A stretch of 64,000 nt of DNA from Chryseobacterium sp. 52 (lineage in GTDB: Bacteria > Bacteroidota > Bacteroidia > Flavobacteriales > Weeksellaceae), in assembly GCF_002754245.1 (NCBI RefSeq), contig NZ_PEEX01000001.1, forward strand, positions 4,010,001 to 4,074,000. The letters are read 5' to 3'. The notes under the pieces were generated by a model. That model ran no database searches and was not told where the DNA came from. It saw only the letters and a program-made list of their open reading frames with translations. A program made the translations under genes and the position numbers. Shown in pieces: positions 52,265 through 64,000 of this stretch (the first letter of the stretch is position 1; each line of letters opens with the position of its first letter).

Positions 52265-52594
52265 ATGTCTGAAATCGCAAAAATTATCGATTCGATTAAG
52301 ATTTTTAATCAAGAGAGGGATTGGGAACAATTTCATAACCCAAAAGATTTAGCAATAGCATTAAATATTGAAACCTCAGAATTATTGGAGCTCTTCCTAT
52401 GGAAAAGAGATACTGATGTTGATGAAAATAAAGTAAAAGAAGAACTGGCAGATATATTCATGTATGCATTCAATATTGCTGATAAATTCAATCTTGACAT
52501 AACTGCAATAGTTAATGAGAAACTTAAAAAAAATGCCTTAAAATACCCTGTCGAAAAATCAAAAGGTACGAGTAAAAAATATAAAGATCTATGA
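52265..52594 (+). CDS. MazG-like nucleotide pyrophosphohydrolase
   Basis: 109 residues, all-alpha, the size of stand-alone iMazG/dCTPase (RS21-C6-like) proteins. The metal-binding helices show ETSELLELFLWK (ExxE) and KVKEELADIFMYAFN (ExxD). Such enzymes hydrolyse (d)NTPs to monophosphates. The last four bases overlap the start of the following nuclease-helicase gene (ATGA), so both products are made together. In defence contexts nucleotide depletion is a known strategy; here that is inference. Confidence 0.87.
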   Translation: MSEIAKIIDSIKIFNQERDWEQFHNPKDLAIALNIETSELLELFLWKRDTDVDENKVKEELADIFMYAFNIADKFNLDITAIVNEKLKKNALKYPVEKSKGTSKKYKDL

Positions 52595-54486
52595 ATGTAC
52601 CTAACCGAAAGGTAATATACAGTGAATCTCAGTCCGATTTCTTTAATGATGTTTTATTGAACAAGGTAGCTGATAAAATGAGAGACAATCATAAAACTGT
52701 TCAAAATAACGAATTTAGAGCATGGGAAAACTCTTCCAAATCGATTAAAAACCTTATTGAGCTCAGTGGTATTACTGATGTATATATAACTTTTGAATAT
52801 CTGGTTCCATATAGTCAAAAGAGAATAGACTGTCTTTTGTATGGGACTAATAAGAATAATAAAGGAGTAGTTATTCATATTGAACTGAAACAATGGGATA
52901 ATGTTACTGCAACAAATATTGAAGGCAATTTTGTTGAAACATATACTGGGAAACCAAAAAATGTCGTTCCACACCCTTCTCAACAGGTTCAAGGGTATAA
53001 TGAATATTTAATTGGTTTTGTTGAGGCTTTTGAAGAAAATCAGATAGGACTTTATGGATGTTCATACTGTCATAATTACACCCGTATTGACGGCGAAGGT
53101 CTATACGATCCTATATACAAAAAAATCCTTACTGACTACCCATTATATTCTAAGAATGATGTACAGAGATTAGCAGACACATTAAAAGAAAAATTAGCAA
53201 ATGGTAATGGTTATGCCATATTTAACAAATTTATGCAAAGCCCTGTAAGGCCTTCAAAAAAACTACTCGAAAGCGCTTCTAAAATAATAGATGATTCCGA
53301 AAAATTTGCTTTGTTAAATGACCAAATTATAGCAAGAAATACAATTATATCAAAGATTAAAAAGGCTGATAAGAACGAGGAAAAGAGCGTTATTATTATT
53401 AAAGGAGGGCCTGGCACTGGCAAAACTGTTATAGCTTTGCATCTGTTAGCAGAGCTAGCTACTTCAGCAAAACAGCGTTCTATTTTTTTTGCAACTAAAT
53501 CAAAACCTCTGTTGGAAGGCATTAAGCATAATCTTGTAAGAGGTAATAAGGCAAAGTTGCTTTTTACCAACCTTAATCAATTTATTCCTTCAAGAGTTGA
53601 TGAAAACTCAGTGGATATTCTTTTAATTGACGAGGCACATAGGATTGGAAAGACCTCAAACAATCAATATACAAAGGCTGCTGACAGAACAGAATTGCCT
53701 CAAATTGACACCCTTATAAAAGCCGCAAAAGTCTCAATTTTCTTTATTGACGATAAACAGAACATAAGAGAACAGGAAATTGGGAATACTGAGTTAATAA
53801 GAAAAACAGCCTCTAATTATAACTGTTCTATAGAAGAAGTAGAACTTATTTCTCAATTTCGATGTAATGGTTCCGACAATTATTTAGATTGGCTGGAGTC
53901 AACTTTAGGTCATAATGAATCCAAAAGAATACTCAAGAAACAGGATAACTACGAATTTAAGATCTTCCCATCCCCTTCGGAGCTTTATAATGAACTCGTA
54001 AAAAAAAGTAAAGAAAAGAACACAACAGCAAGATTAACAGCTGGATTCTGTTGGCCATGGTCTAAAATGTTAGATGAAAATGGAAATTTGAAAAATGATG
54101 TAAGAATAGGTTCCTTTGCAATGCCATGGGAAACTCATGGTGATATAACAAGACCTCCATCAGGTTTTGTTAAATGGTATGAATGGGCATATAAACCAGA
54201 AGGTATTAAACAAGTGGGTTGTATCTATACAGCACAAGGCTTTGAATTCGATTACATTGGAGTTATTATAGGTAATGATTTAAAATATGATGAAAGTACC
54301 GATACTCTTAAAGGAGATATAACAGCAACACAAGATCCAACTTTACGAAGAGGAAAAGACAATTTTGATGAATATGTTAAAAATATTTACCGAGTTCTTA
54401 TGTCACGAGGAATGAAAGGATGTTATGTTTACTTTACGGAAAAAGAAACGGAGAAATACTTTAGATCAAGATTAGAACTAATATAA
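52591..54486 (+). CDS. PD-(D/E)xK-like nuclease + SF1 helicase (DUF2075/Schlafen-group helicase)
   Basis: 631 residues. The N-terminal nuclease-like region (about 40-160) has RID(80), IHIELKQW with Glu98 and Lys100 (D-x17-E-x-K), then HPSQQVQGYNEYL, a pattern of PD-(D/E)xK enzymes. The DUF2075 helicase core has Walker A GGPGTGKT (272-279), Walker B LLIDEAH (344-350), FFIDDKQNIRE, ISQFRCNGSDNYL and the late motifs QGFEFDYIGVIIG and YRVLMSRGMKG. It likely acts on DNA or RNA in the cytosol. The ATGA overlap with the MazG gene and the isolated AT-rich setting suggest a horizontally gained two-gene module. Confidence 0.85.
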   Translation: MNVPNRKVIYSESQSDFFNDVLLNKVADKMRDNHKTVQNNEFRAWENSSKSIKNLIELSGITDVYITFEYLVPYSQKRIDCLLYGTNKNNKGVVIHIELKQWDNVTATNIEGNFVETYTGKPKNVVPHPSQQVQGYNEYLIGFVEAFEENQIGLYGCSYCHNYTRIDGEGLYDPIYKKILTDYPLYSKNDVQRLADTLKEKLANGNGYAIFNKFMQSPVRPSKKLLESASKIIDDSEKFALLNDQIIARNTIISKIKKADKNEEKSVIIIKGGPGTGKTVIALHLLAELATSAKQRSIFFATKSKPLLEGIKHNLVRGNKAKLLFTNLNQFIPSRVDENSVDILLIDEAHRIGKTSNNQYTKAADRTELPQIDTLIKAAKVSIFFIDDKQNIREQEIGNTELIRKTASNYNCSIEEVELISQFRCNGSDNYLDWLESTLGHNESKRILKKQDNYEFKIFPSPSELYNELVKKSKEKNTTARLTAGFCWPWSKMLDENGNLKNDVRIGSFAMPWETHGDITRPPSGFVKWYEWAYKPEGIKQVGCIYTAQGFEFDYIGVIIGNDLKYDESTDTLKGDITATQDPTLRRGKDNFDEYVKNIYRVLMSRGMKGCYVYFTEKETEKYFRSRLELI

Positions 54487-54870: not shown

Positions 54871-55413
54871 TTAGTCACCCCTTATCTTTACAATACTTTT
54901 CCCCATCCATCTCCTCAACCTCCACACCGGCAAATACACAAATACCACAGACAAAATACCCGCAAGCACACCCACTACCACAGACATGGCCGTAGCATCC
55001 AGTTTATAATCTTTTGATAAATTATACTGCGCCAAAAACAGTAAAGACAGCACGAGAGAACACGTAATCAAACCATGCAGAATGCTTAGTTTAGTCATTA
55101 GCTTCTTGATGTTAAGCTGTTCATCTACTGTAAATTCAATGGCGCCCTGGCCGGCAGCATCCGTTACTCTTTTGAGGATATCAATCGTAAGGACAACAGG
55201 TAAAAACAGAGCCATAGGTAAGGTAAGACGGGCCAGGTTTTGGTCTCCGGCAAAGAAATGCGTGTATCCTAATTCCTTAAAGCTGGCATACGCGATAATG
55301 AAGTTGAAAAATACATTCGGAAGGACATAATAGATCGTGCGCTTGATTAAAAAGCGTTTGAGGGTAGTTTTTTTGAGTTTTTTAGGCTTGGGCGGTTTGA
55401 ATTTAAATTTCAT
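54871..55413 (-). CDS. Membrane protein of the polyketide-glycolipid operon
   Basis: 180 residues. A highly basic N-terminus (KFKPPKPKKLKKTTLKR) is followed by four hydrophobic segments (about 28-46, 66-82, 112-130, 142-163). No family recognised. The start overlaps the upstream acyltransferase gene by 4 bases (ATGA). It is the last gene of the seven-gene operon. A role in membrane localisation or export of the lipid product is possible but unsupported beyond position. Confidence 0.7.
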   Translation of the reverse strand: MKFKFKPPKPKKLKKTTLKRFLIKRTIYYVLPNVFFNFIIAYASFKELGYTHFFAGDQNLARLTLPMALFLPVVLTIDILKRVTDAAGQGAIEFTVDEQLNIKKLMTKLSILHGLITCSLVLSLLFLAQYNLSKDYKLDATAMSVVVGVLAGILSVVFVYLPVWRLRRWMGKSIVKIRGD

Positions 55414-56663
55414 AGGGACGAGGTCAGAAGTTCAATGGCTTTATCTTTAATTTTAACGGCTTCCTCGCTCGGAAGGAAATGTTCATTGGACATGAAAGTA
55501 AAGTCCATCTGTTGGTTATAAGTCGTAGTAACCAAAGTATTGGAATTCAGCCATGGAAATGCCACCGTTGGGCTGACAATCGTTTCCAGGGTAAAGTTTT
55601 TATAATCATTGGGAATATCAATTCTTCCCATATTGGACAGTGTGACATCATGCCCTCCTTTACTCGATTTCATCATAGAAATCATGCGGTCAACCACAGG
55701 ATGCATCTGCTCACCCATCCATAGAAGCTCTCTGGCTTCCATTTTTTCTATTTTTTCTACCAGATCTTTTTTAATATGTCTGGCATTTTCCAGCATATCC
55801 TGACTGCCTTTTTTTAGTGACAGTTCAACAGTTGGAGCAAAAGCAAATACCTGATCCAGCTTAATTTCAGGAATAAAATGCCGTACATCAACAGGACTGA
55901 TCACCTTTCCTTTAGCCTGATTCCCCTGTATTTCTTTAAATGCCTGCATAAATGACACACACAGCAATGCATGTACAGAGATACCGTTTGCTTTACATTT
56001 TTCGGTTAATTGTTTCGTCATCGCGGAATTAAATTTCCAGTGGACAAGATAATTTTTCCCGAGATTTCTTTTTTTACTTTTTCGCTGCATCAGAAAGAAA
56101 AGCCGGGCCATCACCAAATACAGGCGGGCTTTACGTTTCTTTTTCTTCATATTAAAATCAAAAGGAAGAAAATCATTAACCGAACTGAATCCCTGATAAG
56201 ATTCCAGCTCAAAAGAAGGATTATCCAACAGACAGAGCAATTCACGCATCAGGGTAACGAGAGAAGTTCCGTCACAGATGCAGTGTGGCAGTACCCAAAG
56301 GATTTCTGAAACATTGTTCCCTTTAACCCATACCAATTGGGCCAGCGGTTTCTTCTCATCTGTAAACAGTCTGAACCATTCTTTTTCAGATTCTAACCGC
56401 CAGTCCTCCTCTGTTTTTCGAGGAACAATACGGATCGGGATCGGTTCAATTTCCGTTTCTTCAACAAAAAAGGGATCGTTTTCACTGGTATTATAAATTC
56501 TGGCTCTTAACAAAGGATGTTTCTGCTGAATTTTCGCTAAAGCAGCCTTAAAGTTCTCTTCTGAGATTTCTCCATTAATTTTTGCTGTAAATACACAATT
56601 TACAGGCGTTGCAGGATCTACATACATGATCCTTTCTACCATCATTAAATTTCGCATCATCAT
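55410..56663 (-). CDS. HHxxxDG-superfamily acyltransferase (condensation/PapA-like), copy 2
   Basis: 417 residues. The catalytic motif is LPHCICDG near 130-137: the catalytic second His and DG are kept, the first His is Pro. Other features of the condensation/alcohol-acyltransferase fold are QQKHPLLRARI at the N-terminus and VTLSNMGRIDIP near 335. It resembles polyketide-associated acyltransferases (PapA5-like) that esterify lipid hydroxyls. The start overlaps the preceding acyltransferase gene by 4 bases. It is clearly paralogous to that neighbour (FSNLGRIQIP there), so the two arose by duplication. Confidence 0.8.
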   Translation of the reverse strand: MMMRNLMMVERIMYVDPATPVNCVFTAKINGEISEENFKAALAKIQQKHPLLRARIYNTSENDPFFVEETEIEPIPIRIVPRKTEEDWRLESEKEWFRLFTDEKKPLAQLVWVKGNNVSEILWVLPHCICDGTSLVTLMRELLCLLDNPSFELESYQGFSSVNDFLPFDFNMKKKKRKARLYLVMARLFFLMQRKSKKRNLGKNYLVHWKFNSAMTKQLTEKCKANGISVHALLCVSFMQAFKEIQGNQAKGKVISPVDVRHFIPEIKLDQVFAFAPTVELSLKKGSQDMLENARHIKKDLVEKIEKMEARELLWMGEQMHPVVDRMISMMKSSKGGHDVTLSNMGRIDIPNDYKNFTLETIVSPTVAFPWLNSNTLVTTTYNQQMDFTFMSNEHFLPSEEAVKIKDKAIELLTSSL

Positions 56664-57931
56664 AATACCGCTATGTGATCTAGTTGTTGTTTTACGGTTT
56701 GAATCACCTCATCACGGATCGCCAATGCCTCCGAATAGGGTAAATATCCCTCGCTTCCCACAAAAGAGAAATCCATTTCCCCTTTAAATGTTGAAGTCAC
56801 CATAGTTGTTGTATTGCCCAACGGGCCAATCACAGAAGGGCTGAAAATAGTATCCAGCGTAAACTCTTTATATTGATGTGGAATCTGAATACGTCCCAAA
56901 TTGGAAAACATACAGTCGTTGGATGATTTGCCGTGCTTTAACAGTTTTGTAAAGTTCTTCAGCGCATCATGGGCAGATTCCATCACCATCATTGTGATGT
57001 AAGGATTCAATTTGGCTGTTTTACGTTCTACAGATTCCTGCATCAGGTGTAGATTTTCTGTAAAATTCATTTTTTGATTGGACGAAACCACAATCATCAG
57101 TCCGAAAGCAAAGATATGATCGTCTTTTATCTGCTTAGCAAACCGCCTGATATCTACCGGACAGGAAACTTTATTGAAAGCAGCCTCCCCTTTTACTTTC
57201 CTGAATGCTTTAAGCACCGCTGCGCTTAAGAAGGTATTGACGGTGACCTCCATTGATTTACAATAGGAAATTAATTCCTGGCTCATCTCTTTGTCCAGTT
57301 TCCAATGAATAAGGTAGTCATTCTGCCTTTCAACAGCCTTTTTACCGACAGGAATACACTTGATCGCTGTGGCTGCCAGTCGTCCGATCACTTTCGCTTT
57401 CAGCTTTTGCTTGCGATTGGTTAAAACTTCAGGTGGAACCACATCCTGAATTCCCAATATGGGTTGCTCTACTCCAATATCAGCAGTCGGATTATCCAGT
57501 ACTTTTAAAAATTCATGGAGAAAAGCCATTGCAGAACCACCATCGCATAAACAATGATGGAACGCAAACAGCATGTCAGAAACATTTTCCCCTTTGATCC
57601 ATACAAACCGGATCAAAGGAAGTTTTTCGTAATTAAAGATTGTGCTCCACTCTCTCCTGGATTCTTCCTGCCACTGATCTTCTCCCTGTCGGGCTATGAT
57701 CCGGACAGGAATCGAGATCGTATTTTCGGGAACATTGAACCATGGAATATTTTTTCCATCATGGCTTATCGATGCTCTCAGCCATGGATGTTTATTTTGA
57801 ATCTGAGCCAGCGCCTGTTGGATCTCTTTTAATCTAAAGGTACCTCTCAGTCTAAACGGAATGACCGCGTTAAAAGGTTCTGTTCCATCCCCTAATAACA
57901 TGCGTTCACCAAATAACAATCTTCTTTTCAT
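56660..57931 (-). CDS. HHxxxDG-superfamily acyltransferase (condensation/PapA-like), copy 1
   Basis: 423 residues with the intact catalytic motif FHHCLCDGG near 126-134, IQNKHPWLRASIS at the N-terminus, VSCPVDIRRFAKQ in the middle and CMFSNLGRIQIP near 340. These are features of the CoA- or carrier-dependent acyltransferase superfamily that includes NRPS condensation domains, wax synthases and PapA5. It probably transfers an acyl chain (from ACP or CoA) onto a hydroxyl of the sugar or polyketide. Four bases separate it from the glycosyltransferase gene. Confidence 0.82.
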   Translation of the reverse strand: MKRRLLFGERMLLGDGTEPFNAVIPFRLRGTFRLKEIQQALAQIQNKHPWLRASISHDGKNIPWFNVPENTISIPVRIIARQGEDQWQEESRREWSTIFNYEKLPLIRFVWIKGENVSDMLFAFHHCLCDGGSAMAFLHEFLKVLDNPTADIGVEQPILGIQDVVPPEVLTNRKQKLKAKVIGRLAATAIKCIPVGKKAVERQNDYLIHWKLDKEMSQELISYCKSMEVTVNTFLSAAVLKAFRKVKGEAAFNKVSCPVDIRRFAKQIKDDHIFAFGLMIVVSSNQKMNFTENLHLMQESVERKTAKLNPYITMMVMESAHDALKNFTKLLKHGKSSNDCMFSNLGRIQIPHQYKEFTLDTIFSPSVIGPLGNTTTMVTSTFKGEMDFSFVGSEGYLPYSEALAIRDEVIQTVKQQLDHIAVL

Positions 57932-57935
57932 AGGC

Positions 57936-60335
57936 TTATACCGGAACTAGTGTGGATTGTTGCACAAAATTTTCAAGCAATTCTACCGCCCGGTCATTAC
58001 CACCTGCCGTAAGTAAGGTATTCCGAACCTCTTTCGCCGCCTTTCTGTAGGCCGGATTCTCTAACAGCTCAAAAACTGTTTCACGAAGCGCTTCAACACG
58101 TAATCTTTTGTATCGTATGCTGATTCCGCACCCTGCTTTTTCAATCAGTTTTGCAATGTGAAAATGATCGTAGGCGATTGGAGTAATCAACATCGGTAAT
58201 CCATTGGTGAAGGTATCATTAACGGTATTAAAACCGCCATGACAGATCACCGCATCCATATGTGGCATTAATGCTGACTGAGGGACAAAACCACTCACAA
58301 TGAAATTAGAAGGCCATTCATCAAATATTTCCGGTGGAGTTGCCGCAATAACCGTTACAGGCTGATCAGCAAATGCAGCAATCACTTTTTCAAAAAATGC
58401 TTTTCGGATGTCTACCAATAATGTTCCTAATGAAACAAATATTTTCGGTGTTGTAGAGGCTTCCAGCTTTTCCCAGTCAAAAGGAGTATTGTTGGGACGG
58501 CCTTTTACGGGGCCTACAAATTCCATATGGGACGGAACGGTTTCAAAATCGGCAAATTTCTGCGATGTAAACACCAAATTCAATTGATGTGAATGGATGA
58601 AAATTCCATCATCATCTATCCCTACTTCTTTTTGCAGTTCTTTGATCAGATTTTGCTGCCATTCAAATATTTTCGGAGCATTATTCTCGGTATCTCCCAT
58701 CACATCCGGTGGAACGGGAGTTGTTGTTACACATGGAATTTGGTTCTTGTGGGCAAAAAGCGCACCTCCGAAAGTGATACAGTCATTCACCAGAACATCA
58801 GGCTTCCAGCTTTCTGTAAGACGGGTTAATCCGGGCATCATCATTTTAGCAAAAGGAACATAGGTTTCCTCCAGTGCCAGTTTCATCACCTCAGGTCCTG
58901 AGCAGGCAGGTCCATCATCCTGTCTCTTTAAAATACGCTGGATTTCCTCCTGGTATTGAACAAGATCTTCTTCAGGATAAAAATAGCTTCCTCCTTCCGG
59001 AATATGCTTACTGTCCAAAGGTCTAATCCCAAACCATTTTACTTCATGACCGCGGGCGATCAGGCTGGCTCCCACACTTAATGTCGGGCTGATATGTCCG
59101 AAAAATGGCGGAACGACAAATAAAAATTTGGAACCGGATTTCACTTTTTCTGTATTTGAAATTAAAGCCTGTTCAAGTAAATTGGCTGCCGTTGAAGTAC
59201 CTCCTGCTTCGATGAAAGATTCCCGAATAGTTTGGGCAGCTTCTTTAAACTCTGAATTATTCAGAATATTCTGAACGGCTTCGTTTAAATGATGAGATTT
59301 AAATCTGTTAAAATTAAGACGTTCTCCCGCTCCGGTACGGACAACACGTCCCGCCACATGCGACTGGTCATACGCAATAGGAATGACAACCAACGGAAGA
59401 CCATTGGAAAGCGCTTCAGATACGGTGTTGTGCCCTCCATGGCAGACTACCCCATCCAGATGAGGTAACAGATCCAACTGCGGAACCTGCTGATAGACCA
59501 TAAAGTTTTCCGGCCAGCTCTCAAAAAGCTGTGGATCTGACACCAAGACAACCGTTAAATCTTCGTCTTTAAAAGCATCAATGACCTTTTGGAAAAATGC
59601 TTTTTTATGATCATGATCAAAAGTAGTCCCGATGCTTACCAGGATCTTTTTCTTGGTATCATTTGTAAAGGTTTCCCAATCAAATGCGCATGCAATACGG
59701 CGTTCTGTGAGAACAGGGCCTGTAAATTGATAATGGGAAGGAAGCTCCATTTCGCCAAAGAAATATCTGGAAGTTAAAACAAGCGTTAACAGATCTGAAG
59801 AGGCTAAAGAACGGTTTTCTGTGATCCCCAGTTCTTTTTGAAGCTCAATGATCTTGCTCACTTCCCATTCATGTACTTTAGGAAGTTCATCCATAATTTT
59901 AATGGCAGCGGGAGCCGTAACGGTGGTACTGTAGGGAAGACTTAGTTTTTTCGCAGCGACAGCAGCCGTAAATAGCTGATGATCCCCAATAACCAAGTCA
60001 GGCTGATAGGATTTCAGTAAAGAAAGAATCCCATTATAGCAATGTCTGTTTAAAGGAATCAGTACCTCTTCGTAAAGAAACTTAATACTGTCTATTCCGT
60101 AGACAACTTTTTTAGAAATAATATCGAGATACTTTTCACTTTCCTGTTTTTCTTCGTCGGTTTGATCATATTGAATGAGCAGAAGTTCACCTCCGACAGG
60201 AAGTTTAGTACTTAAATTTTTGTCAAGACTGATCCACGCCACTTCATGTCCTCTATCCAATAATTCTGCGCCGATGCTTAATGTAGGATTGACATGGCCT
60301 GTCAATGGTGGAACAACAAATACAAATTTAGCCAT
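57936..60335 (-). CDS. Tandem-domain glycosyltransferase (GT1/MGT family, two modules)
   Basis: 799 residues consisting of two full GT-B modules. Module 1 (about 1-395) starts FVFVVPPLTGHVNPTLSIGA and ends with the donor-site motif CHGGHNTVSEALSNGLPLVV. Module 2 (about 402-799) starts FLFVVPPFFGHISPTLSVGA and has CHGGFNTVNDTFTNGLPMLI. Each alone would be a normal ~400-residue macrolide- or zeaxanthin-type UDP-sugar transferase. The two share organisation but differ in about half the residues, so each may add a different sugar. The start overlaps the hydrolase gene by 8 bases. Confidence 0.88.
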   Translation of the reverse strand: MAKFVFVVPPLTGHVNPTLSIGAELLDRGHEVAWISLDKNLSTKLPVGGELLLIQYDQTDEEKQESEKYLDIISKKVVYGIDSIKFLYEEVLIPLNRHCYNGILSLLKSYQPDLVIGDHQLFTAAVAAKKLSLPYSTTVTAPAAIKIMDELPKVHEWEVSKIIELQKELGITENRSLASSDLLTLVLTSRYFFGEMELPSHYQFTGPVLTERRIACAFDWETFTNDTKKKILVSIGTTFDHDHKKAFFQKVIDAFKDEDLTVVLVSDPQLFESWPENFMVYQQVPQLDLLPHLDGVVCHGGHNTVSEALSNGLPLVVIPIAYDQSHVAGRVVRTGAGERLNFNRFKSHHLNEAVQNILNNSEFKEAAQTIRESFIEAGGTSTAANLLEQALISNTEKVKSGSKFLFVVPPFFGHISPTLSVGASLIARGHEVKWFGIRPLDSKHIPEGGSYFYPEEDLVQYQEEIQRILKRQDDGPACSGPEVMKLALEETYVPFAKMMMPGLTRLTESWKPDVLVNDCITFGGALFAHKNQIPCVTTTPVPPDVMGDTENNAPKIFEWQQNLIKELQKEVGIDDDGIFIHSHQLNLVFTSQKFADFETVPSHMEFVGPVKGRPNNTPFDWEKLEASTTPKIFVSLGTLLVDIRKAFFEKVIAAFADQPVTVIAATPPEIFDEWPSNFIVSGFVPQSALMPHMDAVICHGGFNTVNDTFTNGLPMLITPIAYDHFHIAKLIEKAGCGISIRYKRLRVEALRETVFELLENPAYRKAAKEVRNTLLTAGGNDRAVELLENFVQQSTLVPV

Positions 60336-61122
60336 GATGTTGTGTTAATGTGTTAGATAATGATTGAGATAAAAATTGAACGATTGTTTCTGCAATCTGA
60401 ACAGGTTCCTGAATTGGGATATTATGATCTCCTGGAATCAGTTCCAGCTCGGATGAGTGGATCTGTTCGCTGAGCCATCTTCCCGTAGGTTTACAATTGG
60501 ATTCAGCACCATAAAGCAGCAATGTGGGAATCCCGAATTCTGATAAACTGATTTCGCTCAGGAAATGTTTTTCCCTGATCATATCTGCTTTAATACTGGT
60601 TTTTTCAAACAGGAACTCATACATGCGATGGTTTTTCTCCATCTGCCTTTTGCCCATCTGCACTTTGGTGGTGTCTGTAAAATTGGCAACGTAATGTTCC
60701 AGGAATTCTTTGCTGTATTCATCGATAATACCCCGTGCTTTTTCGTCCTGAGGGTCCGGTGCTTCTATCACCACCAGCTGGCTGATGCGTTCGGGAGCCT
60801 TCAATGCTGTTTTCAGTGCAATAAGACCTCCGAAACTGTACCCTGCAAGATGTACCTTTTTAAGGTGTAAAAAATCCATCAGGGCAAGCAGATCAGATGA
60901 CATACTTTCCAGATCATAGCCGTCTGTAAAACGCTCACTCATGCCATGGCTTTTCAGATCGTACATCACCACATGATAATGCTGCGCCAGAATCGGAGCA
61001 ATATTAAAATAATAAATAGACAGGTTGCTGAACATCCCGTGGATAAGAACCACCGTTTGCCCAGCACCCTTATTGAGTTCCTGAATATGAACCTGTTTAT
61101 CGTTAACCGTGATTATTGGCAT
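60328..61122 (-). CDS. Alpha/beta hydrolase
   Basis: 264 residues, no signal peptide. The oxyanion region is VLIHGMFSN, the nucleophile elbow GYSFGG (Ser near 96), the acid in LLLYGAES and the catalytic His in PGDHNIPIQEP. Cytosolic hydrolases in polyketide clusters often act as thioesterases releasing or editing carrier-bound chains, which fits its place directly after the acyl carrier protein gene (10-base overlap) and before the glycosyltransferase gene (8-base overlap). The exact substrate is unknown. Confidence 0.84.
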   Translation of the reverse strand: MPIITVNDKQVHIQELNKGAGQTVVLIHGMFSNLSIYYFNIAPILAQHYHVVMYDLKSHGMSERFTDGYDLESMSSDLLALMDFLHLKKVHLAGYSFGGLIALKTALKAPERISQLVVIEAPDPQDEKARGIIDEYSKEFLEHYVANFTDTTKVQMGKRQMEKNHRMYEFLFEKTSIKADMIREKHFLSEISLSEFGIPTLLLYGAESNCKPTGRWLSEQIHSSELELIPGDHNIPIQEPVQIAETIVQFLSQSLSNTLTQHHG

Positions 61123-61412
61123 TCGTAGATATAATTAATGATCATACGAAGGTCAAGGTTGATCAGCTCATCCAGATCCATAGAAGAAAGCCATCCCGTA
61201 AAATCAATTTGCTCACCGAAATGTGCTTTGATTTTCTCAGAAAAAGAGACAATTTCTATGCTGTCCATTTCCAGATCTTTAGTGAATGAACTTTCCGGAG
61301 TGATATCCATCTCTTCTACAAATTCTGCGCCTATCACTTCAGTAATAAAACCTTTTAAAAGAGTAAACAGTTCCTCGTGATTCAATTTTAATGTGTGGTT
61401 TATAGTGTCCAT
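61113..61412 (-). CDS. Acyl carrier protein
   Basis: 99 residues, acidic, helical. The 4'-phosphopantetheine attachment motif is LEMDSIEIVSF with Ser51. ESSFTKDLEMDS and the preceding helix LFTLLKGFITEVIG are typical. This is a discrete carrier, encoded just after the polyketide synthase whose end overlaps its start by 13 bases, so it is probably the carrier used by that synthase, activated by the phosphopantetheinyl transferase fused to the synthase's C-terminus. Confidence 0.88.
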   Translation of the reverse strand: MDTINHTLKLNHEELFTLLKGFITEVIGAEFVEEMDITPESSFTKDLEMDSIEIVSFSEKIKAHFGEQIDFTGWLSSMDLDELINLDLRMIINYIYECQ

Positions 61413-64000
61413 CCGATAATATAATTTTTATGTTTAATAGTTTTGATTTCTGTTTGGCTGATCCATAAATGATCCCCTTCAATATGGGTGACTTCGATTT
61501 TTTTTGGATTTCCTTTTAAGCCTGTGCCTAAAAATTTCCCGTACGCCTCTTTGGCTACCCAGAAACGGGTGGTCCATTCTGCCTGATCTCTGTCTTTTAA
61601 TAATGTTAATTCGTGGTCGGTAAATACCAGATCGTAAAATCCTGAGCTTCGTTCTTCAATGATTTCCATGTCAATTCCTACCGGGCCGCCATGTCTTGCG
61701 ATACCTACCGCTTCTTTACCTTTATGAGCAAGAGAAATGTGGATATCTTCCGTAATATCCCCGATCAGATAAGGCTTTCCGACTTCATCCGAACCAATTT
61801 CAAATGTAATGGGATAACAGGGATGATTTTTTTCCTGTTTAAGAAGATGTCTCACCGCATCTTTCACGGCTACGCGGCTTACCATCCAGTTTTTCTTACG
61901 GTTTGGTAACAGTTGCTGATGGTATTTCTTTTCAGTTTGGTTAAAATATCTTTTGAGAATAAAATCCCACGAAGCGACTCTTGTGTAAGCCTGATGAAAG
62001 AAAAATACTTCAGGAGCTATTTCTTCCGAAAGGCGGTTATGCAGAGGTGACATCGAAACGTTCCATAAAGGTTCGTCGATTTCCAGTCTACGGTTTTGCC
62101 AGCCTGAAATAGCACACCAGACTTTCCCTTCTCTTTTGAGGATAATATCTGCGATGACAAATTCCTCATTGAGTTCAGTCAGCATGCAGGTACATTCAAA
62201 AATTCCGTCCTGATCCTCCATTTCACCGAAAAATTCGATATCCCTTATTTTCACAGGGAAAGCAATACGGTCTTTCGTCAGAGTAAGCTGTAACCATAAT
62301 CCGAATAACTGTCCGGCATTGTCCAATAATGAACCTTTCCCTCCGTTTCCTTTAATTTTTCCTACGATACCTTTGGTTCCAACTGATGAAACTTCTGTAA
62401 TTCCCTGGTAAAGCTCTCCATGGAACATGTGTTTATCATAGATTTCTTCAGGTGTTCTCTCAATAGGTAAAAGATCTCCTGTTGAAAGATTGAAAGCAGG
62501 AGCAGGGCGGGCAGATGAGGTTAATACGACCTCAGCATTCACAAAGTTTTCAATATCAAGATAAGCATGATTCGGTGAGCGCCATTCCCCTTTTACTGTT
62601 TTTTCAAAAGGTTTGGCAACATTCATCCATTGAAATACGCTCACATTCATGATTTTATGAACCTGTGTTCCCTGCATTTCTGCCTGTGCGATTTCTGCCA
62701 ATTGTTCAAAAATCATCGTCATTGGAATCACGGGCTCCATATCAGCGACTTCAGACCATCCTTTTGGCTGTCGTAATAAACTGTGATCAATCAGGTAAGG
62801 GTGACTTTCCAAAGTAACATGCAGAGATTTCGAGAAGTTCTTGCTGATTGATGCTTTTGGTAAAACAATATTTGGAATTGTTGCTTCCGGACGATTATGA
62901 AACAGGGTCAACACTTCTTCCTGCATCCGGATCATATCTGTGATATTGTCCTGGAATGCCTGTACAAGCGGATGTCCGGTTTTAGCAACCGTCGCAGAAA
63001 CAGGATTTTGTTTAGGCCTGTCAAAAGATTGGGCCAAAGTTTTAATTTCTTTAAAATCACGGATAATCGGGGAACCTAATTGCAGCTTAATCCCTTTTCC
63101 TGAGGATTTTTTTGAAGATTTATGCAATTCTAAAAAGTCAAGGGCTACCTCTTTCCCTTCCACAAACAATGCGGCTACCACACGCTGCAGCTGAGCCAGT
63201 GCAGATCGCGTTGGTACACTGGATGCAATGGTACTGAATGCTTTTCCTTTCAATGTATCATCAATAAATCCGATTAATCCTCCGGTTCCTATCTGAATAA
63301 AGAATCTCGCTCCTTCTTCATAAAGTTTATCCGTCAGTTCACGGAAACGGACCGGCTGAACGAGATGCTCGGCACTCAGTTTCCGGATAGCGTCCTGATC
63401 TGCAGGATATGGTTCTAAAGTCGTTGCGGACCATAAAGGAATTTTTGTCTTTTGAAACTGTGCCTTTTCCATTCCCGCTAAGATCACATCCAGTTTATCT
63501 GCAATAAAAGGCGAGTGAAAACCGGATTGGAACGGCAATATCTGATGAAAGATCTGTTTTGATTTTAATAAAGGAACCAATTCATCCAGTGCAGCATTAC
63601 TTCCACAAAGAATAACCTGATTCGGGCAATTGTCATTGGAAATATAGACGTTGGAAATCTCTTCTATGAGAGGCTTGATTGTATCGATGCCTGCTCCAAT
63701 GGCAATAAATCTGGAATCTTTTAATTCAAAAGTTTCGGGATTAAGTACATCGATCAGTGCCTTGACAGAATTGACTTCCGCCAGTTCGGAGGAATATCCG
63801 GCCAGCCATTCTCCCAAGCTGTGCCCGGCATTCATATCCGGTACAATTCCCAGCTTTTTTAATGCATTATCCAGGATGCTGCATGTATTGAAAATACCCA
63901 ACGCATCGTTTAATAAACCTTCTCCTTCCGTTTCAATAGGTTCCGTCAATCCGAAATAACGGCTGACACTTTCAACTTCGCCTTTCGCCAGGCCGTCTAA
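61400..64000 (-). CDS. Polyketide synthase, C-terminal part: AT, dehydratase and fused phosphopantetheinyl transferase
   Basis: The frame stays open to the right edge (64000), so the N-terminus, expected to hold a ketosynthase, is outside. Numbering from the Met at 63949: acyltransferase GHSLGE (Ser44) and SGFHSPF (His145); a linker; a double-hotdog dehydratase with HPYLIDHS (His383) and LLDNAGQ (Asp543); a C-terminal Sfp-type phosphopantetheinyl transferase with GIDMEIIEERS (758-768) and WVAKEAYGKFLG (797-808). No ketoreductase or carrier domain is visible in this part. AT...DH-PPTase order recalls the enediyne and polyunsaturated-fatty-acid synthase family. It is the first visible gene of a strictly overlapping operon. 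Confidence 0.85.
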   Translation of the reverse strand, partial: LDGLAKGEVESVSRYFGLTEPIETEGEGLLNDALGIFNTCSILDNALKKLGIVPDMNAGHSLGEWLAGYSSELAEVNSVKALIDVLNPETFELKDSRFIAIGAGIDTIKPLIEEISNVYISNDNCPNQVILCGSNAALDELVPLLKSKQIFHQILPFQSGFHSPFIADKLDVILAGMEKAQFQKTKIPLWSATTLEPYPADQDAIRKLSAEHLVQPVRFRELTDKLYEEGARFFIQIGTGGLIGFIDDTLKGKAFSTIASSVPTRSALAQLQRVVAALFVEGKEVALDFLELHKSSKKSSGKGIKLQLGSPIIRDFKEIKTLAQSFDRPKQNPVSATVAKTGHPLVQAFQDNITDMIRMQEEVLTLFHNRPEATIPNIVLPKASISKNFSKSLHVTLESHPYLIDHSLLRQPKGWSEVADMEPVIPMTMIFEQLAEIAQAEMQGTQVHKIMNVSVFQWMNVAKPFEKTVKGEWRSPNHAYLDIENFVNAEVVLTSSARPAPAFNLSTGDLLPIERTPEEIYDKHMFHGELYQGITEVSSVGTKGIVGKIKGNGGKGSLLDNAGQLFGLWLQLTLTKDRIAFPVKIRDIEFFGEMEDQDGIFECTCMLTELNEEFVIADIILKREGKVWCAISGWQNRRLEIDEPLWNVSMSPLHNRLSEEIAPEVFFFHQAYTRVASWDFILKRYFNQTEKKYHQQLLPNRKKNWMVSRVAVKDAVRHLLKQEKNHPCYPITFEIGSDEVGKPYLIGDITEDIHISLAHKGKEAVGIARHGGPVGIDMEIIEERSSGFYDLVFTDHELTLLKDRDQAEWTTRFWVAKEAYGKFLGTGLKGNPKKIEVTHIEGDHLWISQTEIKTIKHKNYIIGWTL

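Follow-up and report, generated by a model that had tools for sequence, protein, structure and literature searches.

A conserved, apparently uncharacterised candidate operon for an acylated glycolipid with a PUFA-synthase-like core in Chryseobacterium and other Bacteroidota

In C. pinensis and C. gleum, a Type N secondary lipid synthase was described whose product is uncharacterised, according to the accessible part of the paper (Shulse and Allen, 2011; PMC3098273). In the hgl islands of cyanobacteria, a PUFA-like synthase and the glycosyltransferase HglT make a glycosylated long chain, and fused pfaDA and pfaBC-PPTase genes were found in two NRPS hybrids of Flavobacteriales, from Aquimarina and Flavobacterium, where they were likened to Renibacterium (available sections of PMC11804610 and PMC13291983, respectively). 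In the genome of C. herbae, antiSMASH region 2.2 (495,527-554,653) was called as hglE-KS/T1PKS/terpene, with no known counterpart in the accessible text (PMC10459008). A set of glycosyltransferase (GT) and PapA-like acyltransferase genes such as the one analyzed here is not described in the available portions of these four papers. Open-access literature, in which subscription papers are mostly not covered, yielded no characterised product for it, in agreement with an earlier sequence-only reading of this DNA.

In this paper we analyzed an operon of Chryseobacterium sp. 52, starting from a window, meaning the whole stretch of 64,000 nucleotides at C1:4010001-4074000 of its 5.30 Mb single-contig genome. 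Window positions 54871-64000 carry seven closely spaced minus-strand genes. From pksB leftward, the successive junctions are overlaps of 13, 10 and 8 bases, a gap of 4 bases and two overlaps of 4 bases each, which reproduces the coordinates behind the earlier description of 4-13 base overlaps with one 4-base gap. The operon is truncated by the right window edge, and the genome sequence beyond it completes pksB and adds pksA, giving eight genes in all. It had been proposed to look to the right for KS and KR genes; these are indeed found there, KS and KR in pksA and a KS in pksB. The features are as follows, in window numbering:

pksA, about 65652-72644 (off window), minus strand: ER-ER-KS-AT-ACP-ACP-KR
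pksB, off-window end, to about 65632, minus strand: KS-AT-DH-PPTase
pksB, 3' part, 61400-64000, minus strand: whole gene is L009:7401-11633, 1410 aa
AT domain of pksB, 63245-63865, minus strand: Ser and His kept, Leu at the malonyl-binding Arg place
DH of pksB, 62051-62854, minus strand: PKS-type double-hotdog dehydratase, His950 and Asp1104 invariant in 79/79 rows
Phosphopantetheinyl transferase (PPTase) domain of pksB, 61436-61684, minus strand: PF01648 at 50.3 bits, cut-off 25
acp, 61113-61412, minus strand: stand-alone acyl carrier protein, Ser51 invariant in 79/79 rows
abh, 60328-61122, minus strand: alpha/beta hydrolase, likely thioesterase/chain release, GYSFGG and the His of GDHN invariant in 80/80 rows
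gt, whole gene, 57936-60335, minus strand: TIGR01426 in two stretches
GT module 1, 59142-60335, minus strand: GT1/MGT type, H14, D118 and D323-Q324 invariant in 81/81 rows
GT module 2, 57936-59141, minus strand: H414, D518 and D723-H724 invariant in 81/81 rows
papA1, 56660-57931, minus strand: PapA-like acyltransferase 1, HHxxxDG, 86/86 rows
papA2, 55410-56663, minus strand: PapA-like acyltransferase 2, PHxxxDG, PF16911 at 40.2 bits, cut-off 30
mp, 54871-55413, minus strand: four-helix protein, presumably membrane, no family above cut-off and no fold match

The eight-gene unit is real and bounded. Upstream of pksA, the home stretch was compared with six stretches from other genomes, one of them beginning just 158 bases before pksA. 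Among the six informative stretches, which reach well past pksA, no flanking gene is common to all; the commonest is an ORF of 337 aa, found in 4/6 stretches at varying distance. Downstream of mp, the most widespread gene cluster occurs in 11 of 77 loci. As no upstream flank is conserved throughout and the top downstream gene cluster reaches only this count, the unit was set at eight genes. A domain search of the eight operon proteins shows no transporter, whether ABC or MmpL, and no regulator. Just to the left of the operon, on the plus strand at window 52265-54486, there is a small ORF which, from its sequence alone, we take to be MazG-like, followed by an ORF of 631 aa with a GGPGTGKT motif. 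Elsewhere in the genome, an aromatic ammonia lyase lies near FabF-like KS genes at C1:1146249-1167082, which is probably the flexirubin locus, and three other large KS-bearing frames of about 1500 aa each are found at C1:1766298-1774895 and 1808892-1809632, likely as a separate PKS or PKS/NRPS cluster.

Translated from its ATG at L009:18645, PksA has 2330 aa (a longer TTG start gives 2354 aa). By profile search it contains two NMO/FabK-like ER stretches, a KS, an AT, two ACPs and a KR, while PksB contains a KS, an AT, a DH and a PPTase. PksA scores 1047.9 bits with the NCBIfam PfaA model TIGR02813, above the cut-off of 1010.1, and the synthase scores far higher with this model than with the mycobacterial PKS models listed. 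Because the PfaA cut-off is passed, the core belongs with the PUFA-synthase-like "secondary lipid synthases" and not with the mycobacterial-type PKSs; it also unites KS, ACP and KR within one PfaA-like protein, as does a Pfa-like secondary lipid synthase in the sense of Shulse and Allen. The ER region of PksA reaches 148.2 bits with the FabK model, below the cut-off of 453.1, with no PfaD model listed; AT_A matches the PfaB model weakly (22.2 vs 144.3), and for AT_B no PfaB model is listed.

Conservation was followed in alignments whose rows are the loci plus the window, 79 rows for pksB and 78 for pksA, the latter being covered in the 80 loci only from about residue 760 onward. In PksB, the KS Cys207/His342/His381, the AT Ser605/His706 and the PPTase Asp1321/Glu1362 are invariant in 79/79 rows. 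In PksA, the same holds in 78/78 rows for the AT Ser1275/Arg1300/His1380, the Ser/Tyr/Asn of the KR motif, both Ser sites of the tandem ACPs (two PP-binding stretches) and the His pair of the KS, and the KS Cys is present in all 7 rows that reach that site (the other 71 begin later). The catalytic role of the residues checked is presumably the one known from their families. The PksB AT has Leu in 79/79 rows at what we take to be the malonyl-binding Arg place (FabD Ser+25), and because of this replacement it is probably a non-malonyl acyltransferase. The DH is PKS-type by structure-model matches over about residues 128-395 of the segment, in a model of low overall confidence (mean pLDDT 61.5, pTM 0.57). 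No match to PF07977, the FabA-like dehydratase, was found in pksA or pksB at E<=0.001, and the three matches in the whole genome are not near the cluster. A CLF, i.e., a KS-like domain without the active Cys, was not found either: both KS domains have complete active sites and no further KS-type domain is listed. With a DH of the PKS type and no FabA-like dehydratase in the cluster, classical PUFAs are an unlikely product.

The GT scores 382.6 bits with TIGR01426, the macrolide-family GT model (cut-off 260), over the whole protein in two stretches, which places it with the MGT enzymes, and its solved relatives among those listed include YjiC and oleandomycin glycosyltransferases. The two modules are 39% identical to each other and both keep the active-site pair, His14/Asp118 and His414/Asp518, in all 81 rows. 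Their donor ends differ, Asp-Gln in module 1 and Asp-His in module 2, each equally invariant; by analogy with plant GTs, the Gln and the His may stand for different sugars. The modules are a single ORF in 73 loci and separate genes in the other 7, all from Pedobacter or Mucilaginibacter.

PapA1 and PapA2 share 35% identity. In PapA1 the HH and DG of HHxxxDG are invariant (86 rows); in PapA2 the His127/Asp131/Gly132 are invariant over 79 rows and Pro replaces the first motif His in 79/79. Both are above the cut-off of PF00668, whereas with PF16911 PapA2 passes and PapA1 has 21.7 bits. In the PDB, PapA1 matches a mycobacterial phthiocerol/phthiodiolone dimycocerosyl transferase (E 5.4e-14). The mycobacterial likeness that the sequence-only reading had seen is thus kept for PapA1 and lost for the synthase, given its PfaA score. 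Its list of enzymes for chain building, release, two glycosylations and two acylations, with a membrane protein, is borne out by the conserved active sites of both GT modules and both PapA proteins. A third papA is found in six loci, three of Chryseobacterium and three of Mucilaginibacter (L022, L024, L066, L084, L085 and L086). A search of plasmids with PapA2 gave 8 records, all of 22-32% identity, and around the match in the two that were inspected, from Nostoc and Crinalium, the operon is absent.

The stand-alone ACP and the hydrolase keep their Ser51 (79/79 rows) and Ser96/His233 (80/80 rows), respectively; the hydrolase belongs to a generic family. For the four-helix protein a good structure model was obtained (mean pLDDT 84.6), which has no Foldseek match at E<=0.001, and the protein of the window has no Pfam family above cut-off, only weak matches such as SecD_SecF_C (17.0 vs 20.5 bits).

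The GT search gave 134 encoding stretches, the best 80 of which were used as loci. They come from Chryseobacterium, Flavobacterium, Sphingobacterium, Pedobacter, Mucilaginibacter and one Sphingobacteriaceae bacterium. The closest loci belong to Chryseobacterium in the Weeksellaceae (best GT match 90% identity), as expected from the Bacteroidota setting proposed before. The gt gene is present in all 80 by selection, papA1 also in 80, pksB, acp and abh in 79 each, pksA and papA2 in 78 each and mp in 77. Absent genes are confined to loci cut by a contig end (L063, L075 and L079), except for mp, which has no match in L088 although that contig continues. The survey of the genus within Weeksellaceae, which had been suggested as a check, found the DH-PPTase part of pksB in 89 of 148 genomes, the home genome included; the same 89 have a PapA match (lists compared by eye) and 59 have neither. 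The papA2-type match has 60-100% identity in 88 carriers, while G265 has just one of 36%. Among 395 genomes of the phylum there are 4 matches, home genome included, with a close-range query by which more distant forms (e.g., in Chitinophaga) could be missed. The best 120 of 419 matches of a protein search with pksB have 60-100% identity over the queried region. One relative of pksB with 62% identity, protein P0115, is labelled Agrobacterium tumefaciens, outside Bacteroidota, which may reflect either transfer or an assembly under the wrong name. In G507, G516, G454 and G534 the match to papA2 or pksB contains stop codons, and in L036 the reading frame of acp seems to shift; these may be decay or sequencing errors.

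Trees of pksB and the GT were built from 34 rows (33 hand-chosen of the 80 loci, and the window) and compared with the taxonomy. Sphingobacterium clusters with Flavobacterium (support 100/100 for pksB and 99/97 for the GT), away from Pedobacter and Mucilaginibacter; the Flavobacterium locus L083 is nested within Chryseobacterium, and the Sphingobacteriaceae locus L061 shifts its position between the two trees. These groupings contradict the taxonomy and thus suggest horizontal transfer of the operon between orders.

The explanation that we consider probable, with some reserve, is an operon for an acylated diglycosyl lipid. From the gene set, its domains, the conserved active sites and the co-retention of the genes, we infer the following substrates, linkages, order of steps and location. 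PksA and PksB would jointly form a PUFA-synthase-like lipid synthase that is iterative and fully reducing, with a malonyl AT, two active KS, a KR, a PKS-type DH, a tandem FabK-like ER, tandem ACPs and a built-in PPTase. The second AT, without the malonyl-binding Arg, would load a starter acyl group or move the finished chain. The acceptor for the sugars may be a hydroxyl that stems from an unfinished final cycle or from a 3-hydroxy starter. The stand-alone ACP and the hydrolase would pass the chain on or set it free, two sugars would be added one after the other by the GT modules, and the PapA-like enzymes would esterify acyl groups onto hydroxyls, two groups or three with a third papA. The four-helix protein may anchor or move the product in the membrane. 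Speaking against this picture are the generic family of the hydrolase, the frequent action of MGT-type GTs on diffusible polyketides, an operon that holds no exporter (ABC or MmpL), and an mp that lacks a fold match and has no counterpart in L088. The best reading of the product is a lipid built from a long hydroxy-acyl chain, two sugars and two or three ester-bound acyl groups; we know of no way to read the donor sugars and acyl donors from sequence.

Alternatively, the operon could make a diffusible polyketide or lactone that is glycosylated and acylated (an antibiotic, a signal or a surfactant), in which case MGT-type enzymes and PapA proteins would serve for tailoring or self-protection. 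GTs of the MGT type often act on diffusible polyketides and not on lipids, PapA-like enzymes can acylate polyketide hydroxyls, and the macrolide-family score of the GT and its solved relatives agree with this. Yet a PfaA-like synthase with a full reducing domain set and tandem ACPs points to a fatty chain, and the eight genes include no transporter or regulator; we regard such a product as unlikely. A mycobacterial acyltrehalose-like logic is still less probable, although the PDB match of PapA1, the presence of two PapA proteins with two GT modules and a possible chain presentation by the stand-alone ACP would fit it. Here the PKS chain would be not the aglycone but the acyl donor, placed by PapA1 and PapA2 on a disaccharide or a glycosylated small acceptor, but then the chain-release hydrolase would be superfluous; moreover, the eight genes include no MmpL-type exporter, and the PfaA model gives the synthase a far higher score than the listed models of mycobacterial PKSs do.

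PUFA genes to the right had been named as evidence against a glycolipid cluster, and this came true by half: the synthase is PfaA-like, but the FabA-like dehydratase is absent from the cluster, no KS lacks its active Cys and the synthase stays together with the GT and PapA genes, which makes an EPA/DHA-type pathway with unrelated neighbours very improbable. For a flexirubin/aryl polyene pigment cluster, named in the same way, it can be said that flexirubin is called the major Chryseobacterium pigment in the accessible part of the C. herbae paper, but there the resorcinol/arylpolyene region (flexirubin 75%) is separate from the hglE-KS region (PMC10459008). In our genome, one of the two aromatic lyases lies with the FabF-like KS genes at about 1.146-1.167 Mb, far from the operon near 4.07 Mb, and the only two PF00221 matches are at 1.146 and 1.234 Mb. 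Gene content refutes this candidate in practice.

If the acylated diglycosyl lipid is right, a complex glycolipid for which no description was found would be encoded in some 60% of the genomes sampled from the genus (89/148), the product range of PUFA-like synthases would be widened and PapA chemistry would be linked to them outside Actinobacteria. Naturally occurring variants of the cluster, with two or three copies of papA and with fused or split GTs, would then be a ready test system. More tentatively, and with the odds rather against it, the product may belong to a new class of surface lipids in bacteria, diglycosides of a long hydroxy-acyl chain to which two or three more acyl groups are attached. 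A PUFA-like synthase would make them, they would have spread horizontally across two Bacteroidota orders, and their acyl number would be tuned by papA copy number.

Compared with the known systems, the synthase core is probably the Type N catalogued in 2011, judging from the description in the available text. Type N is a Pfa-like synthase of Bacteroidetes including Chryseobacterium gleum, and that text has no mention of linked GT and PapA genes (PMC3098273). The C. herbae region 2.2 is very probably the same locus, because our locus L057, at 517,845-540,247 on contig 2 of a C. herbae strain, falls within it if 'region 2.2' is read as contig 2; the antiSMASH call is wider and includes a terpene gene (accessible part of PMC10459008). 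The heterocyst glycolipid islands, as far as the available sections describe them, share a PUFA-like synthase plus a glycosyltransferase, but the operon has two MGT-type GT modules and PapA acyltransferases and no hgd-type ABC transporter (PMC11804610). The Aquimarina and Flavobacterium hybrids, in the portion at hand, likewise have two polypeptides, one joining the ER to the PfaA part and the second carrying a fused PPTase, whereas here there is no NRPS and the synthase is linked to GT and PapA genes (PMC13291983). The mycobacterial PapA5-type acyltransferases have the same condensation/PapA-type domain and HxxxDG motif, but in the operon the PapA proteins stand with a PfaA-like synthase and without an MmpL among the eight genes. 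Taken together, this is a real, conserved and apparently uncharacterised operon, probably for an acylated glycolipid, in which the type of the core is known and the combination is new.
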